DNA from: Actinomycetota bacterium
GTDB taxonomy: Bacteria > Actinomycetota > Acidimicrobiia > Acidimicrobiales > JAJPHE01
Assembly: GCA_027315345.1 (NCBI GenBank)
Contig: DAHUYE010000059.1
Coordinates: 1-49,390 of the forward strand
Direction of reading: 5' to 3'
Length of the DNA stretch: 49,390 nucleotides
Positions 1,417 through 6,955 of this stretch are shown one piece after another. Position 1 is the stretch's first letter, and every line of letters begins with the position of its first letter. The notes beneath the pieces are model-generated. The model was not told the origin of the DNA and did not search any database. It worked only from the letters and a program-made list of their open reading frames with translations. The translations under genes were made by a program, and so were the position numbers.

Positions 1417-2012
1417 TCAACGCAGTGGCCACCGCCGAACTTCAACAGAAGGCGGGACATCCTCGCCAGGAAGGGTCCGGTCGGTAGCGACACGGCCAGC
1501 AGCACCCGGGCGCCGGCCTCGGCTATCAGGCCGGCGCCCCACGCCGCCGTAATGAGGCGGAAGGTGCGGGGAGCGGTCGGCATCTCCCACAGTTCGTCAT
1601 AGGCAGCCGTCTTGGCCGGGTCATCACCGGCGGACAGGGCCCGCCCGATGAAGAACATCAGCGGACGCCGGGCCCACAGGGAACTCAGGCAGATCAGCCC
1701 GAACATGGCCGTGAAGGCGGAATCCCTGACCTTGAGCACGAAGGCGCTGCCCCCCAACAGGAGAGATGCGATGATCCCGGCCACGAACCCGAACAGCACG
1801 ATGCAGCCGATCGGGTCGATGCGCCGCCGCCGCAGCCACTCGAAGGCCACCCAGGCCGCCGCCGGCGCCCCGGCGATCATCAGAGCCGGGGCGTCCCCAT
1901 TCACATGAGGCCGCACCAGGTAATAGACGGCCAGGGGTACCACCGCACCACCGATGGCCCCCGGTCCCATGGCCCGCAGGGACGGTGCCCCCGGCTCCCA
2001 GGTGCCGGTCAT
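1401..2012 (-). pseudogene. VC0807-like membrane protein, 3' end replaced by the IS
   Basis: Integral membrane protein of about 203 residues as it now reads, with several hydrophobic segments (for example IVLFGFVAGIIASLLLGG and ITAAWGAGLIAEAGARVLLA). It resembles the VC0807 family of poorly characterised membrane proteins, which usually run to about 220-240 residues. The start ATG overlaps the stop of the upstream oxygenase gene by one base (TGATG), so the two are translationally coupled. From about 1461 the frame enters the IS right repeat and ends with roughly 19 IS-encoded residues (...LKFGGGHCVDQAAA). The native C-terminus is therefore lost. Function is unknown; whether the truncated protein works cannot be told from the sequence. 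Confidence 0.7.
1425..1461. repeat. Right inverted repeat of the IS element
   Basis: Reverse-complement partner of 1-37, beginning 8 nt after the transposase stop codon. The outer boundary near 1459-1461 is where sequence homologous to the left end stops. The frame of the neighbouring minus-strand gene reads straight into this repeat. Confidence 0.7.
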
Positions 2013-3019
2013 CAGGAGGCGGTGCTCGGCTCGGCCGAGGTCGAGGCGGGCGTCTCCGCCCACAGGCCCAGCGCCCGCCAGAGCCGGCGGTAAGCCGGGC
2101 CGGCCAGGCCGAGCTCGGTCCACAGGCGGCGGATCTTGGCCATGGAGGCCAGCGACTCGGCGTGGTGCTGGGGGTTATCGGTGAAGGCCTGCTGGATGAC
2201 CTCCTTCGGAATCGAATAGCGCCGGACCAGCTGGCGAGAGGGCCGCAGCATCATCTGGGCCATGGTGGCCAGGATGAAAGGCGCCCCGATGGCCAACTCG
2301 GCCCGGCGGACGAAGCCCAGGGTGGGGACGGTGCGCTTCAGATAGTGCCGGGCGAAGGAGAGGTGCCTGGCTTCCTCGGTGACGTGGATGCGCATGATGC
2401 GCTCGAGGAGCGGGTGGATGTCCCGTCCACTGCGCAATTCCCGGCGCTGTACGTAGTCGATCGGATCCTCTCCACCCAGGACGAAGGCGAAGAACAGGGG
2501 CGGGAACCGCCGGCCCAGGCTGACGATGAAGCGAGCGGCGGCCTGATCGGCCCGGCCGAGTCCGCGGGCGTCGAAGCCGCTGCGGTTGACGAACTCCTGG
2601 AACATCAGGGAGTGCTGGGCCTCCTCGATCACCTCGTGGTAGGCATAGCGGAACTCGCCTGACCCGTTCGGCAGCCGGGTGGCGAACTCGAGCAGGCCCC
2701 GCTTGAGCACGCTTTCGAACTCGAGGCCGATCTTCATCTTCGAGGCCACGGTCTCCAGGCCGAGGCGGGCCCGCTCCGGCTGGGGGAGGTTCCGATACCA
2801 GTCGGTCGCGCCCAGCGGATCATCGGAGTCGAGTTCCCAGCGGGGGTCGGCCGGATCGATCCGGTGTTCAGGGTCGTCCCAGGCCACGTCGGCGTAGGCG
2901 TCGAAGTGCTTGGTCACCGACTGCCGGCTCAGCCGGGCCACCAGGGCCTCGAACTCCCCGGGTCGCTCGGACTCCTCCCCCGGGACGTCGGCGGACATGA
3001 GGTCGAACGTGCTGGTCAT
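2012..3019 (-). CDS. AurF-like diiron oxygenase
   Basis: Predicted soluble non-haem diiron oxygenase of the AurF (p-aminobenzoate N-oxygenase) family, 335 residues. The four-helix-bundle ligands are visible as E100 (GLEFE), E132/E133 with H136 (EEAQH), E184 (GGEDP) and E215/E216 with H219 (TEEARH). Family members oxidise arylamines or related substrates using two irons and O2; the substrate here is unknown. It starts opposite a divergent TetR gene with a shared operator at 3051-3078, so control by that repressor is likely. The stop codon overlaps the start of the downstream membrane-protein gene. The purine-rich run just upstream of the ATG can serve as a ribosome-binding site. Confidence 0.82.
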   Translation of the reverse strand: MTSTFDLMSADVPGEESERPGEFEALVARLSRQSVTKHFDAYADVAWDDPEHRIDPADPRWELDSDDPLGATDWYRNLPQPERARLGLETVASKMKIGLEFESVLKRGLLEFATRLPNGSGEFRYAYHEVIEEAQHSLMFQEFVNRSGFDARGLGRADQAAARFIVSLGRRFPPLFFAFVLGGEDPIDYVQRRELRSGRDIHPLLERIMRIHVTEEARHLSFARHYLKRTVPTLGFVRRAELAIGAPFILATMAQMMLRPSRQLVRRYSIPKEVIQQAFTDNPQHHAESLASMAKIRRLWTELGLAGPAYRRLWRALGLWAETPASTSAEPSTAS

Positions 3020-3050
3020 CTGGCTTTCCCCCAGGAGAAGGTGACTTAGC

Positions 3051-3078
3051 GGTCACCGCATAGTGACCCATCGGTCAC
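3051..3078. promoter_or_regulatory. Palindromic TetR-type operator
   Basis: Three GGTCAC/GTGACC half-sites occur in tandem between the divergent oxygenase and TetR genes. GGTCAC at 3051 and GTGACC at 3063 are spaced by 6 nt; GTGACC at 3063 and GGTCAC at 3073 are spaced by 4 nt. Such overlapping palindromes are typical TetR-family binding sites. A -10-like GATACT follows at about 3095 on the plus strand. Binding by the adjacent TetR protein is inferred. Confidence 0.7.
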
Positions 3079-3133
3079 CATCAGGTCAAGCGTTGATACT
3101 GTGACCTCCACCACATGGAGGTGTTCCGGGCCG

Positions 3134-3733
3134 TTGGCCAATGCGAGGCTGAGTCGGGAGGAGCGGCGTAGCCATATCCTGGCGGCGGCCTCCAACGTCT
3201 TCGGGCGCCTGGGCTTCGAATCCGCCCGCATGGACGACGTGGCCAAGGAAGCCGGCATCGCCAAGGGCCTGCTGTACAAGCACTTCGCCTCCAAGGACGC
3301 CCTGTTCCGAGCCCTGGTCGACCGGCAGGGCAACTCCTACGCCGCCGACCTGCGTTCGGCCCTGGCCGATCCCGGGCTTTCGGCTGACCCCTCCGAGGTC
3401 CTGCGGGCCGGTCTGGCCTTCTGGCTGCGGATGGTCAACGACAAAGAAGCCAGCTTCAACCTCACCGACCCCGGAGTACACGACGCCTACGAGGGGCTCC
3501 GGGAGTCCCTGCGATCCGTGATCGCCGACGCCGTCCGGGCCGCCGAGCCGGACGTGCCCGAGCCGTTCCCCCGTTACGTTGCTGCCCTGATCCAGGGGGC
3601 GGCGGAAAACCTGGGGCTGGTTTGGCGGGACGACCCGGCCGGAGTGGGCGAGGAGGACGCCTTGGCCATGTTGACCGCCTTCTGTTGGGGCGGCCTCAGC
3701 CAGTTGGGCGCTTCTCGTCCCCCGGCCGGCTGA
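3134..3733 (+). CDS. TetR/AcrR-family transcriptional regulator
   Basis: One-domain repressor of about 199 residues. The N-terminal helix-turn-helix is clear (SHILAAASNVFGRLGFESARMDDVAKEAG, split here as a continuous family match, followed by GLLYKHFASKDALF). The C-terminal ligand-binding domain is not informative about the ligand. The start is uncertain. A GTG at 3101 sits on or beside the likely -10 element, so the TTG at 3134, preceded by GGAGG, is preferred. It is divergent from the diiron oxygenase and shares the palindromic operator, suggesting local autoregulation and control of that operon. Confidence 0.85.
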   Translation: MANARLSREERRSHILAAASNVFGRLGFESARMDDVAKEAGIAKGLLYKHFASKDALFRALVDRQGNSYAADLRSALADPGLSADPSEVLRAGLAFWLRMVNDKEASFNLTDPGVHDAYEGLRESLRSVIADAVRAAEPDVPEPFPRYVAALIQGAAENLGLVWRDDPAGVGEEDALAMLTAFCWGGLSQLGASRPPAG

Positions 3734-3847: not shown

Positions 3848-4798
3848 TCAGATCCGCTCGGGCAGGGCCGAATCCCCGATGAAGGCGCCGAAGCCTCCCG
3901 AGGCGCTCACCCTTCCGTCGGAGGTGACCACCAGGCCCTCGGCCCCGGTGCCCCGCAGGACCGTCAGAGGCTCGGGCGACCGGTTCAGCATGACCGCCTT
4001 GGTCAGCACCTCGGCCAGCCAGGCCTCGCTGGCGACCACGGTGGCGAACTCCACGGGCCCGGCTGACGGCACGCCCGTGACCGGGTCGATGAGGTGGTGC
4101 ATCTGCTCCCCGTCCAGCGACCACCGGCGCAGCAGGGTGGTGGAGGTGGCCATCCCCCCGTCGGCCAGTCCCACCAGGGTGAGGGGCGAGCTCAGCCGGG
4201 GATGATCGACGGCCGCCGTCCAGCCGCCCCCTGCCGGTCCGGCTCCGGAGACCCGGATGTCCCCGCCCAGATTGATGCAGGCCCCCGTCGCCCCGGCTCG
4301 CAGGGCCTGGAGAGCGACCAGATCGGCGGCCAGGCCTTTGCCGAGGCCCCCGGAGTCGAAGCCGGTCCCGGCCGGAAGGCGGACGGCGCCCTCCCGGATG
4401 ACGATCCCGCCACAGCCGGCGCCAAGGTCGCTCCGGCCCCGGGCCGGGCCGGCCGCCACCGCATCGAAGTCCCGGTCGTAGCCGGCCCGGATCAGCGGTC
4501 CCAACAGGGTGGGGTCGAAGACGCCGCCGGTCTGCTTCCAGCCCTGGATGCCGCGCCGGATCAGGGTCAGGGTGTCCTGGGACACCTCCATGAACTCCTC
4601 GGGCGACGCGTTCAGCCGGCTCAACTCGCTGTCGGGGCGGAAGCGGCTCCACCGCCAGTCGAGCTCATCGACCCGTTGCCGCAAGGTGTCGAGCAGCCCC
4701 TCCGGGCCACCGGTGACGATGAGGTGGCAGGCCGTCCCCATGGCCCGGAATCTGACCTCGGCGAAGCGACCCTCGGATTCAGGAGTTCCGGTGCTCAC
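3848..4798 (-). CDS. apbE: FAD:protein FMN transferase (ApbE)
   Basis: ApbE-family flavin transferase, about 316 residues from the chosen GTG. ApbE covalently attaches FMN from FAD to a Ser/Thr of target redox proteins. Family features include FRAMGTACHL at the N-terminus, FDPTLLGPLIRAGYD, the glycine-rich FDSGGLGKGLAADL, CINLGGDIRVSG and HHLIDPVTGVPS. No lipobox or signal peptide is visible, so it may act in the cytoplasm, unlike many ApbE proteins. The frame stays open upstream through a hexanucleotide repeat that would encode an Ala-Val run, so an earlier start is possible. It is the last gene of the redox operon with the ferredoxin, NuoF-like and ferric-reductase-like genes. No FMN_bind target domain was recognised in the window. 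Confidence 0.9.
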   Translation of the reverse strand: MSTGTPESEGRFAEVRFRAMGTACHLIVTGGPEGLLDTLRQRVDELDWRWSRFRPDSELSRLNASPEEFMEVSQDTLTLIRRGIQGWKQTGGVFDPTLLGPLIRAGYDRDFDAVAAGPARGRSDLGAGCGGIVIREGAVRLPAGTGFDSGGLGKGLAADLVALQALRAGATGACINLGGDIRVSGAGPAGGGWTAAVDHPRLSSPLTLVGLADGGMATSTTLLRRWSLDGEQMHHLIDPVTGVPSAGPVEFATVVASEAWLAEVLTKAVMLNRSPEPLTVLRGTGAEGLVVTSDGRVSASGGFGAFIGDSALPERI

Positions 4799-4805
4799 CG
4801 CGACC

Positions 4806-4831
4806 GCTACTGCTACTGCTACTGCTACTGC
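4806..4831. repeat. GCTACT hexanucleotide tandem repeat
   Basis: Four perfect GCTACT copies plus GC lie across the end of the ferredoxin gene and the region before the apbE start. On the minus strand the repeat reads CAGTAG, so in the ferredoxin frame it supplies the stop and three further in-frame TAG codons. In the apbE frame the same bases read as Ala-Val. The unit is a multiple of three, so changes in copy number would alter spacing without shifting frame. Confidence 0.95.
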
Positions 4832-5031
4832 ACATCGGCCAGGCGCAGGGCCAGCGCGGGGCAGTTGGCCACTGCCCACTTGGCCTGGTCCAGGAGGTGA
4901 GCCGGGATGACCTCGGGGCGGACGATGGGATAGCCCCAGTCATCCAGGCGGATCCATTCGTGGAACAACTCGGCGCAGATGCCGTGTCCGACGCAGGCGA
5001 TGGGGTCGACCCGCAGGATGTTGACGCTCAT
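4825..5031 (-). CDS. Small ferredoxin
   Basis: Small ferredoxin of 68 residues, the compact type often partnered with actinobacterial oxidoreductases. The cysteines visible are in CVGHGICAEL and NCPAL, giving a C-x5-C spacing plus a distal Cys-Pro. This pattern suggests a 3Fe-4S cluster, because the middle cysteine of the 4Fe-4S motif is a glycine or histidine here. The ATG at 5031 follows GTGAGGA; an alternative in-frame ATG at 5046 overlaps the NuoF-like gene. It lies between the NuoF-like gene and apbE, so it probably carries electrons for the same complex. Its TAG stop is inside the hexanucleotide repeat. Confidence 0.87.
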   Translation of the reverse strand: MSVNILRVDPIACVGHGICAELFHEWIRLDDWGYPIVRPEVIPAHLLDQAKWAVANCPALALRLADVQ

Positions 5032-5036
5032 GTTCC

Positions 5037-6347
5037 TCACCGCCATGTCTTGCCGGGCGGCGGGACGCGCAGGACGGGCCGGCCGTTGCCCCTGCACTCG
5101 CCCGTGCTCATGTGCCGGGTCAACTCATCGGAAAATACGGTGAGGGCGCTGCGGACCAGCCGTGCCGCCCCGTCCGGGTGCTTGCAGGCTCCCCGGCCCT
5201 CGATCTCCCCGGCCCAGCGCCGGACCGTCTCCAGGTCGTCCCGGTTGGCCCGGGCCGCCGCCACCTGGGCGAACAGTTCGGACAGGTCGGCCAACCCGAA
5301 GATGCACGGACCGCACTGGCCGGCGCTCTCCCCGGCGTACCAGGAGACCACCCGGGCCGTCTCGGCCAGGCCGCACGCCGAGGCCGGCAGGGCCAGGACC
5401 ACTCCGGCCCCGGGGCTGGCCCCGAGGGGGAGCAGGCCGGCCCGGCTGTAGGGGGTGTCCAGGGCGTCAACCGGAAGCCAGGTCCCGTAGAAGCCGCCGA
5501 CCATGACCGCCGACAGTTCCGCCGCCGGCCCGCCCACGGCGTCGATGAGGGCGCCTATGGGTGTACCGATGGGCGCCTCGACCACCGCCGGCTGGCCCAC
5601 GGCGCCGCTGACGGTCACGAGTCGCCCCCCGGGCTCGTCCGGGGTGCCCAGTTGGCGGAACCACTCCGGCCCGTGCCGGGCGATCAGGGCCATGGTGGCC
5701 AGGGTCTCCACGTTCTGGACCAGGGTGGGCCGCCCGGCCACCCCCTTCTCGAAGGGCCGGGGCGGAACGCTGGTCGGCATGGCCGGCCCGCCGTTCATCC
5801 ACTGGACCAGGCCGGTCTCCTCCCCGGCCACGTAGCGCGACGGCGTGCCGGCCAGCCGCAGGTCCACGCCCAGTCCTTCGGTCGAGGTGCGCTCGGCCAG
5901 CGCCGCCCGCATGGCCTCCAGGGCCCGGCGGTGGGCCCGGTCCACCCCGATGAGGACCTGGCTGGCCCCCACGGCGGCGGCGGCCAGCACGGCCCCGTCG
6001 ATGACCAGATGGGGATTGTGGGTCATGAGCGTCTGGTCCTTGGCACTGGGGGGTTCACCCTCGGTGCCGTTGGCCACCACCACCCGGGGCCCGGGCCCGT
6101 CGGCCACCGCCTTGAGCTTCCTGGCGGTGGGGAAGCCGGCGCCGCCTCGGCCCAGCAGTCCGGCCGCGCCCATGAGGTCTATGAGGCTGTACCTGGGCTG
6201 GGCGGACGGAGGCGGGGGCAGGGTGTAGGTCTTCCGGTGGGTGGCCAGACCGATGTAAGAGTCGGGACTGGCGCCGGCCAGGAGCCGGGAGGGGGGCAGG
6301 GGGCGGGTCTTGCGGGCCGGGGCCGTCCGCCCGGTGGCGATGGTCAT
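5037..6347 (-). CDS. NuoF-like NADH/flavin and iron-sulfur oxidoreductase subunit
   Basis: Homologue of the 51-kDa NADH-binding subunit of complex I (NuoF), 436 residues. The FMN/NADH glycine-rich stretch appears as LLGRGGAGFPTARK, followed by VVANGTEGEPPSAKD, and then the SLBB and iron-sulfur regions. The cluster site is unusual: ESAGQCGPC replaces the usual ES-C-G-x-C-x-x-C, so one of four cysteine ligands is Ala, while a distal Cys (ACKHPDG) is kept. The ATG overlaps the stop of the ferric-reductase-like gene by 4 nt. The gene order suggests NAD(P)H oxidation here, with electrons passed to the membrane haem protein or the ferredoxin. It is not part of a nuo operon. Confidence 0.85.
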   Translation of the reverse strand: MTIATGRTAPARKTRPLPPSRLLAGASPDSYIGLATHRKTYTLPPPPSAQPRYSLIDLMGAAGLLGRGGAGFPTARKLKAVADGPGPRVVVANGTEGEPPSAKDQTLMTHNPHLVIDGAVLAAAAVGASQVLIGVDRAHRRALEAMRAALAERTSTEGLGVDLRLAGTPSRYVAGEETGLVQWMNGGPAMPTSVPPRPFEKGVAGRPTLVQNVETLATMALIARHGPEWFRQLGTPDEPGGRLVTVSGAVGQPAVVEAPIGTPIGALIDAVGGPAAELSAVMVGGFYGTWLPVDALDTPYSRAGLLPLGASPGAGVVLALPASACGLAETARVVSWYAGESAGQCGPCIFGLADLSELFAQVAAARANRDDLETVRRWAGEIEGRGACKHPDGAARLVRSALTVFSDELTRHMSTGECRGNGRPVLRVPPPGKTWR

Positions 6348-6955
6348 CGGCTCACCGGCCTGGAGGCGTTGACCCGGCGGTGGGCCGGGCGCCGGTCGGG
6401 GGTGCGGACCGGCGCCGCCATGACGTCGTGGCTCTCCGATTTGGCGATGCGTACCGCCGCCAGGGCGATGGCCACCGTCAGCACCCCGAGCATCCCGTAG
6501 CGCAGAACGACGGTGTGCCGGTCGGTTCCGGCCGTGAGGGCATGCAGCGTTCCGAGGGCGAGTAGGGGGAAGGCGGCGTAGTGGGTCGCCCTCCACAACT
6601 GGGGCGACAGCCGGGTGCGCAGCAGGCTGGTCAACTCCACCGCCACCATCAGGTACATGGCCACGATGCCCCAGGCCACCGCGACCGGATGCCATGAACC
6701 GGTGAGGGGGATCAACAGGCTCACCGGACCGAAGTGGACGTAGGTGTCCAGGGAGATCGAGGTTATGTGGATGCCGAGGAAGACCAGGGCGGCCCCACCC
6801 AGGAACCGGTGGAGGTCGAGGATCCACGCCGGCCGGGGCCGGCGCCCGAAGGCCCGGGTGGTCAGAGCCAGGCCCCAGATGACGCTGGCGGCCAGGAGGG
6901 CCCAGGTCACAATCCCGCTGGAACGGGCCATGTACCAGATCAACTTCGACGTCAC
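6344..6955 (-). CDS. Ferric-reductase-like transmembrane protein
   Basis: Membrane protein of 203 residues with about five or six hydrophobic helices and the ferric-reductase-like/YedZ haem-binding pattern. Candidate haem ligands are H in LHRFLGG, H in GIHIT, H in THYAAF and H in TLHAL. Proteins of this fold move electrons across the membrane through b-type haems. It heads a four-gene minus-strand operon with a NuoF-like protein, ferredoxin and ApbE. It has no fused flavin/NAD domain, so the NuoF-like partner probably supplies that function. The acceptor outside the cell is unknown. Confidence 0.87.
   Translation of the reverse strand: MTSKLIWYMARSSGIVTWALLAASVIWGLALTTRAFGRRPRPAWILDLHRFLGGAALVFLGIHITSISLDTYVHFGPVSLLIPLTGSWHPVAVAWGIVAMYLMVAVELTSLLRTRLSPQLWRATHYAAFPLLALGTLHALTAGTDRHTVVLRYGMLGVLTVAIALAAVRIAKSESHDVMAAPVRTPDRRPAHRRVNASRPVSR

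Follow-up and report, generated by a model that had tools for sequence, protein, structure and literature searches.

Among the flavinylation systems described by Meheust et al. 2021 (PMC8238504), the sections of that paper on which we draw report 31 MsrQ-like clusters in which a PF01794 haem protein is found together with a PF10589 NuoF-like protein and an ApbE enzyme, Actinobacteria being the dominant carriers. For clusters containing a NuoF-like protein NAD(P)H was proposed there as the electron donor, and about 4% of the genomes in the set were noted to have an ApbE without known substrate. The criterion applied, as given in the same sections, was the presence of at least one of ApbE, FMN_bind, DUF2271 and DUF3570 with a signal peptide or lipidation site. 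As regards the substrates of ApbE, a seven-residue motif was reported to be sufficient for the enzyme, its last Ser or Thr being the modified residue and the N- and C-termini being the places where it works best; replacement of the motif Asp (D-to-A) had minor effects only (PMC12052999). FMN_red proteins with a flavinylation motif in a C-terminal extension have also been described as ApbE substrates (PMC11334425).

The window analysed here, that is the whole stretch of 49,390 nucleotides, carries on its minus strand an operon of four genes in the order FRTM, NuoF-like protein, ferredoxin and ApbE, each with a Pfam match, in agreement with the types, place and order that a first-pass annotation of this DNA had given them. 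The FRTM gene (6344..6955) has a GTG start and codes for a ferric-reductase-like transmembrane bis-haem protein of 203 amino acids with about five hydrophobic segments, whose score against PF01794 (28.5 bits) is just above the cut-off of 28. Its reading frame shares 4 bp (ATGA) with that of the NuoF-like NAD(P)H/FMN protein (5037..6347; 436 amino acids; PF01512, PF10589 and PF10531). These are followed by a small ferredoxin of the 3Fe-4S type (4825..5031; 68 amino acids; CxxHxxC(x)nCP; Fer4_15, 35.7 bits) and by ApbE, the FAD:protein FMN transferase (3848..~4798; PF02424, 156.6 bits), which is without signal peptide. A (TACTGC)n hexanucleotide repeat, read directly at 4796..4830, covers the ferredoxin stop codon and the gap up to the ApbE start, and its length could vary. 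Next to the operon (2012-3733) lies a diiron oxygenase of AurF type, its gene divergent from that of a TetR regulator, and a transposase-like ORF, of IS256 type by appearance, is found at the window's left end (64-1416).

Relatives were taken as the best 80 in GTDB genomes, two search patterns being used, and the four-gene set was found to be co-conserved in about 60 of these 80, in Actinomycetota, Chloroflexota and Dormibacterota; related species were counted separately, so that the loci cover three phyla but are not independent. ApbE lies beside NuoF in 63 of the best 80, FRTM in 73 and ferredoxin in nearly all; many of the loci missing a module gene are at contig ends, and some carriers have no ApbE adjoining the module. 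The commonest order is ApbE>FRTM>NuoF>Fd. Conservation of the four genes together, which the first-pass annotation had put forward as a check, is thereby borne out, and the four genes are a widely conserved bacterial module. A second set, in the usual order, is present in the same genome on contig C86, with a NuoF 43% identical to that of the window. Of the 59 relatives with enough sequence, 40 have an OmpR-type response regulator and a HAMP histidine kinase flanking the module, and the C86 set is likewise preceded by such a two-component system; its presence beside most copies hints at induction by an envelope or redox signal. Two further neighbours were observed: a recurrent membrane protein without Pfam match, which may be a further haem protein (L027:8223-9140 and 16 other loci), and a VIT-family iron transporter, which adjoins the module in L136 and L137 (Rhodococcus and Cnuibacter plasmids) and in 3 of the 80 genome loci.

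The NuoF-like protein matches Complex1_51K (PF01512) at 130.9 bits and NADH_4Fe-4S at 69.6 bits, with an SLBB domain also found, and the GRGGAGFP of the FMN/NADH-binding domain is conserved among its relatives. Its closest solved structures are Nqo1/NuoF, with 2fug chain 1 as the best, and its score against the NCBIfam NuoF profile (233.5) is far below the cut-off of 558.65. The N3 ligand set of complex I NuoF, C-x2-C-x2-C-x(~40)-C, is not found in the window protein, which has Ala342, Cys345, Cys348 and Cys388 at these positions (ESAGQCGPC...GRGAC against the usual ESCGxCxPC); the Ala in place of one Cys ligand had been noted in the first-pass annotation. Cys325 and Cys418 are conserved in addition. 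Ala occupies the first N3 position in 86 of 94 relatives and mostly Ser does so in the remainder, the figure of 86 being biased upward because Ala was itself part of one of the two search patterns. The swap of Cys for Ala is a family trait. Cys345, Cys348 and Cys388 are invariant among the relatives, and the extra Cys325, 17 residues upstream, is present in 93 of 94 and absent from Nqo1. Judged from this pattern of conservation, Cys325 may serve as the swapped fourth ligand of the Fe-S centre.

In FRTM, His49, His63, His125 and His138 are invariant among 84 aligned relatives, the pattern that would be expected for two bis-His haems. The motif of the window ferredoxin reads C13-x2-H16-x2-C19...C57-P58; it is kept in relatives, in the alignment of which Cys is absent from the common residues at the second motif position. 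On a Rhodococcus pyridinivorans plasmid (L141:4450-5930) a NuoF-like protein and a ferredoxin are found within the operon of a Rieske ring-hydroxylating dioxygenase, with no haem protein; since the pair sits in such an operon, this arrangement supports a role of the NuoF-like protein and ferredoxin as a putative NADH:ferredoxin reductase. The L141 pair would be an unusual reductase for a Rieske dioxygenase.

With NAD(P)H as donor, the module probably moves electrons across the cell membrane. NAD(P)H would reduce the FMN of the NuoF-like protein, and the electrons would then reach the small ferredoxin through the Fe-S centre of that protein, go on to the two FRTM haems and arrive at the membrane's outer face. 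The anatomy, with an FMN/NADH domain of NuoF type, a ferredoxin and the four invariant His residues that would bind haem, fits the NAD(P)H-driven transmembrane route suggested in the first-pass annotation, which stays a probable one. It is unlikely that the flow is instead reversed, from an outside donor or quinol through the haems to ferredoxin/NAD+, or that cytosolic oxygenases, the neighbouring AurF for instance, are the main recipients of electrons from the NuoF-like protein and ferredoxin. The AurF-type gene does adjoin the window operon, the pair is known from the dioxygenase operon above and a P450 lies close to the L118 relative, but FRTM stays with NuoF and ferredoxin in the 73 relatives already mentioned, and AurF itself is outside the operon and divergent from TetR.

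The outward route from NAD(P)H to the haems leaves the role of ApbE to be accounted for. As had been remarked in the first-pass annotation, the operon contains no FMN_bind gene. A motif search of its four proteins found [ST]GA[ST] in none. The genome has exactly one FMN_bind protein (contig C63; SGATYTS), located beside a ferric-reductase/FNR fusion, and a second AurF-like gene seems, by eye, to be close to this locus. No DUF2271 was found in this genome, and hence no DUF2271 substrate there. An FMN_bind protein always co-occurring, with the four genes not co-conserved, had been named beforehand as what would speak against the initial reading; among the 50 genomes carrying the module, 20 are without FMN_bind. 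Six of these 20 (G060, G073, G075, G086, G087 and G095) have exactly one ApbE. The carrier genomes are mostly drafts, so that a single absence is weak, but FMN_bind is also absent from isolates, Nocardia seriolae and the complete chromosome of Phytohabitans flavus among them. FMN_bind as a universal partner of the module is ruled out by these absences. Since FMN_bind is often absent and its genes usually adjoin a different, compact type of ApbE, the module ApbE most likely has another substrate. We regard it as very unlikely that the module ApbE serves an FMN_bind protein from another part of the genome, the C-terminal tags described below being unrelated to flavinylation; the single protein on C63, with its motif and its ferric-reductase/FNR neighbour, would be available for this, but the genome also has one ApbE of the compact type (contig C82), and the FMN_bind-less carriers would have no such protein to offer.

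A substrate other than FMN_bind is suggested by the gene immediately 5' of apbE in relatives, which mostly overlaps it by 4 bp (ATGA/GTGA) and codes for a short protein with no credible Pfam match. Its N-terminus is basic (RDxGLRRxRRxTxW); a single hydrophobic helix follows, and then a tail of 41-133 residues rich in Pro, Ala, Ser and Thr. Its net charge is +4.4 ahead of the helix and +0.4 beyond, and by the positive-inside rule the tail should therefore face outward. An exact C-terminal [ST]G[AG][ST] was found at 42 of the 60 loci with intact ApbE, and at two more with one extra Arg, while as a control the same motif was found at 4 of 2392 internal 4-mer positions of the same tails. Asp is present at position -6 of the motif in 4 of 61 cases, and four members, from Micromonosporaceae, have DxxSGGS, which matches the published ApbE consensus in full except for Gly in place of Ala. 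Tagged proteins were also found beside FRTM/NuoF without ApbE, and elsewhere as second copies. At L044:879-1892, FRTM is fused with an extra helix and a tail carrying two tags, VVVSGGS and VVATGGS, in the manner of a Rosetta-stone fusion. Two tagged proteins (HATTGASAAG... and HATTGASGAP) are encoded just upstream of the C86 set; the relatives of this set, L127 and L128, carry TTTGATVVIP, VTGASGAH and ATTGASGVP. Other tail ends are found in about one relative in four: RSAGS, TTKGS and TTTRAS in three plasmid copies, and ...SG..C[YHW] in a subset of Acidimicrobiia. In L072, L090, L092, L095, L097 and L101, tails encoded upstream of ApbE end in ...TTTT[VI]C..[PA]SG...C[YHW] and are matched by an ApbE subclass of their own (VNHIIDPRTG).

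The [ST]G[AG]S ends might conceivably not be flavin sites at all, being instead a by-product of the overlapping apbE start or ribosome-binding site, or a docking or sorting peptide, and to this we attach a low probability. The overlap with apbE does favour TCA or TCG (Ser) as the final codon in most genes, and the plasmid relatives lose the Gly yet keep [ST]x[GA]S. Gly is nevertheless coded in the tags by each of its four codons and Ser/Thr by several, and a Shine-Dalgarno-like string is found in only 6 of 40; since the codons vary synonymously and such strings are rare, the tag peptide itself is under selection. The motif is moreover kept without overlap (L068 and L084), in tags far from ApbE and in the fusion with FRTM. 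A Shine-Dalgarno artefact as the source of the motif is ruled out by codon use.

With the tags read as flavin sites, the acceptor at the outer face would in most relatives be an FMN covalently put by the operon ApbE on the Ser/Thr that ends a flexible, membrane-anchored tail, and this tethered FMN would pass electrons on to an extracytosolic acceptor. We infer the electron path, its direction and the flavinylation of the tag from gene content, co-conservation, the conservation of ligands and tag and the absence of FMN_bind, and we think it likely that this is a transmembrane electron-transfer module which ends, in most relatives, at an ApbE-attached flavin on a tail protein. As the ApbE is predicted to lie in the cytosol and the tail outside, this reading requires that the tail be modified before or while it is exported; the same conflict of inside and outside applies to the FMN_bind protein of this genome and its signal-less ApbEs. 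No reports of C-terminal tag proteins were found in the open-access literature, and they are apparently an undescribed kind of ApbE partner. It also seems rather likely that they make up a class of ApbE substrates, namely one-helix membrane anchors, each with a long, disordered tail on the outside and one covalent FMN on its last residue, which would serve as a tethered shuttle from a membrane haem protein to outside acceptors in three phyla and account for some of the ‘orphan’ apbE genes.

The copy in the window departs from this picture. The first-pass annotation had left the flavinylated protein unnamed; relatives now supply a candidate in the tail ending [ST]G[AG]S beside ApbE, but no tag gene was found next to the window copy, nor a clear one in its nearest relatives L117 and L118, the latter of which has a similar one-helix protein with the motif absent. 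The [ST]GA[ST] DNA pattern occurs 15 times in the window against 15.8 expected, which is chance level, and we therefore claim no tag there. A search of this genome with an N-terminal profile gave no convincing further tag protein (best E 0.37). The window ApbE begins VSTGTPESEG, with no hydrophobic stretch, and the module ApbEs of relatives are likewise without signal peptide. Where the D..T metal/catalytic motif is usual it reads AEVLTKAVML, with E for D and K for T by comparison with relatives and solved ApbEs, while the ApbEs of tag-linked relatives keep both D and T. This altered active site and the missing tag, together with the lack of a two-component system, could indicate a decayed paralogue, which we consider doubtful: the four frames are intact, the redox ligands are conserved, and the E/K signature defines a small ApbE subclass common to the window, C86, L118, L127 and L128, three of the last four having tags. 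Given the missing adjacent tag gene and the signature held in common with C86, we tentatively propose that the window ApbE works in trans on the C86 tag proteins, a possibility that we put somewhat short of even; its substrate may alternatively be an unrecognised protein.

The combination of PF01794 protein, NuoF-like protein and ApbE is already published, as the sections of PMC8238504 cited above make plain, and the tag proteins are the new part; no mention of a C-terminal-tag protein was found in those sections. The window resembles the MsrQ-like system described there in having a PF01794 protein near ApbE and the four-His bis-haem pattern. It differs in that no signal peptide or lipidation site of the kind specified there is found in the operon, and in that FMN_bind, the typical partner in the clusters treated in those sections, is missing, a ferredoxin is added and relatives have the C-terminal-tag protein. 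The NuoF-like protein is like complex I NuoF/Nqo1 in its FMN- and NADH-binding domain, SLBB and N3-type domain, but has Ala at the first N3 Cys, the new Cys325 and an operon without NuoE partner, suggesting a ligand swap at the Fe-S site. The ferredoxin is similar to the CXX?XXC(X)nCP ferredoxins found in actinobacterial P450 systems (PMC6237146) in its CxxHxxC(x)nCP motif, size and single cluster of [3/4Fe-4S] type, but its partners are a membrane haem protein and a reductase of NuoF-like type rather than a P450. As with the engineered flavin-tag (Tong et al. 2021, as cited in PMC12052999) and FMN_red (PMC11334425), a short ApbE motif on a flexible terminus would suffice. In contrast to the engineered tag, as it is summarised there, the carrier here is natural, a membrane anchor of one helix whose disordered tail has the motif as its very C-terminus; FMN_red, for its part, is a folded flavoprotein. 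The tag proteins are a precise and widespread candidate ApbE substrate, of relevance to ApbEs without known substrate, and suggest a minimal electron wire made from one tethered flavin, in which nature would also use the flavin-tag that was devised by engineering.
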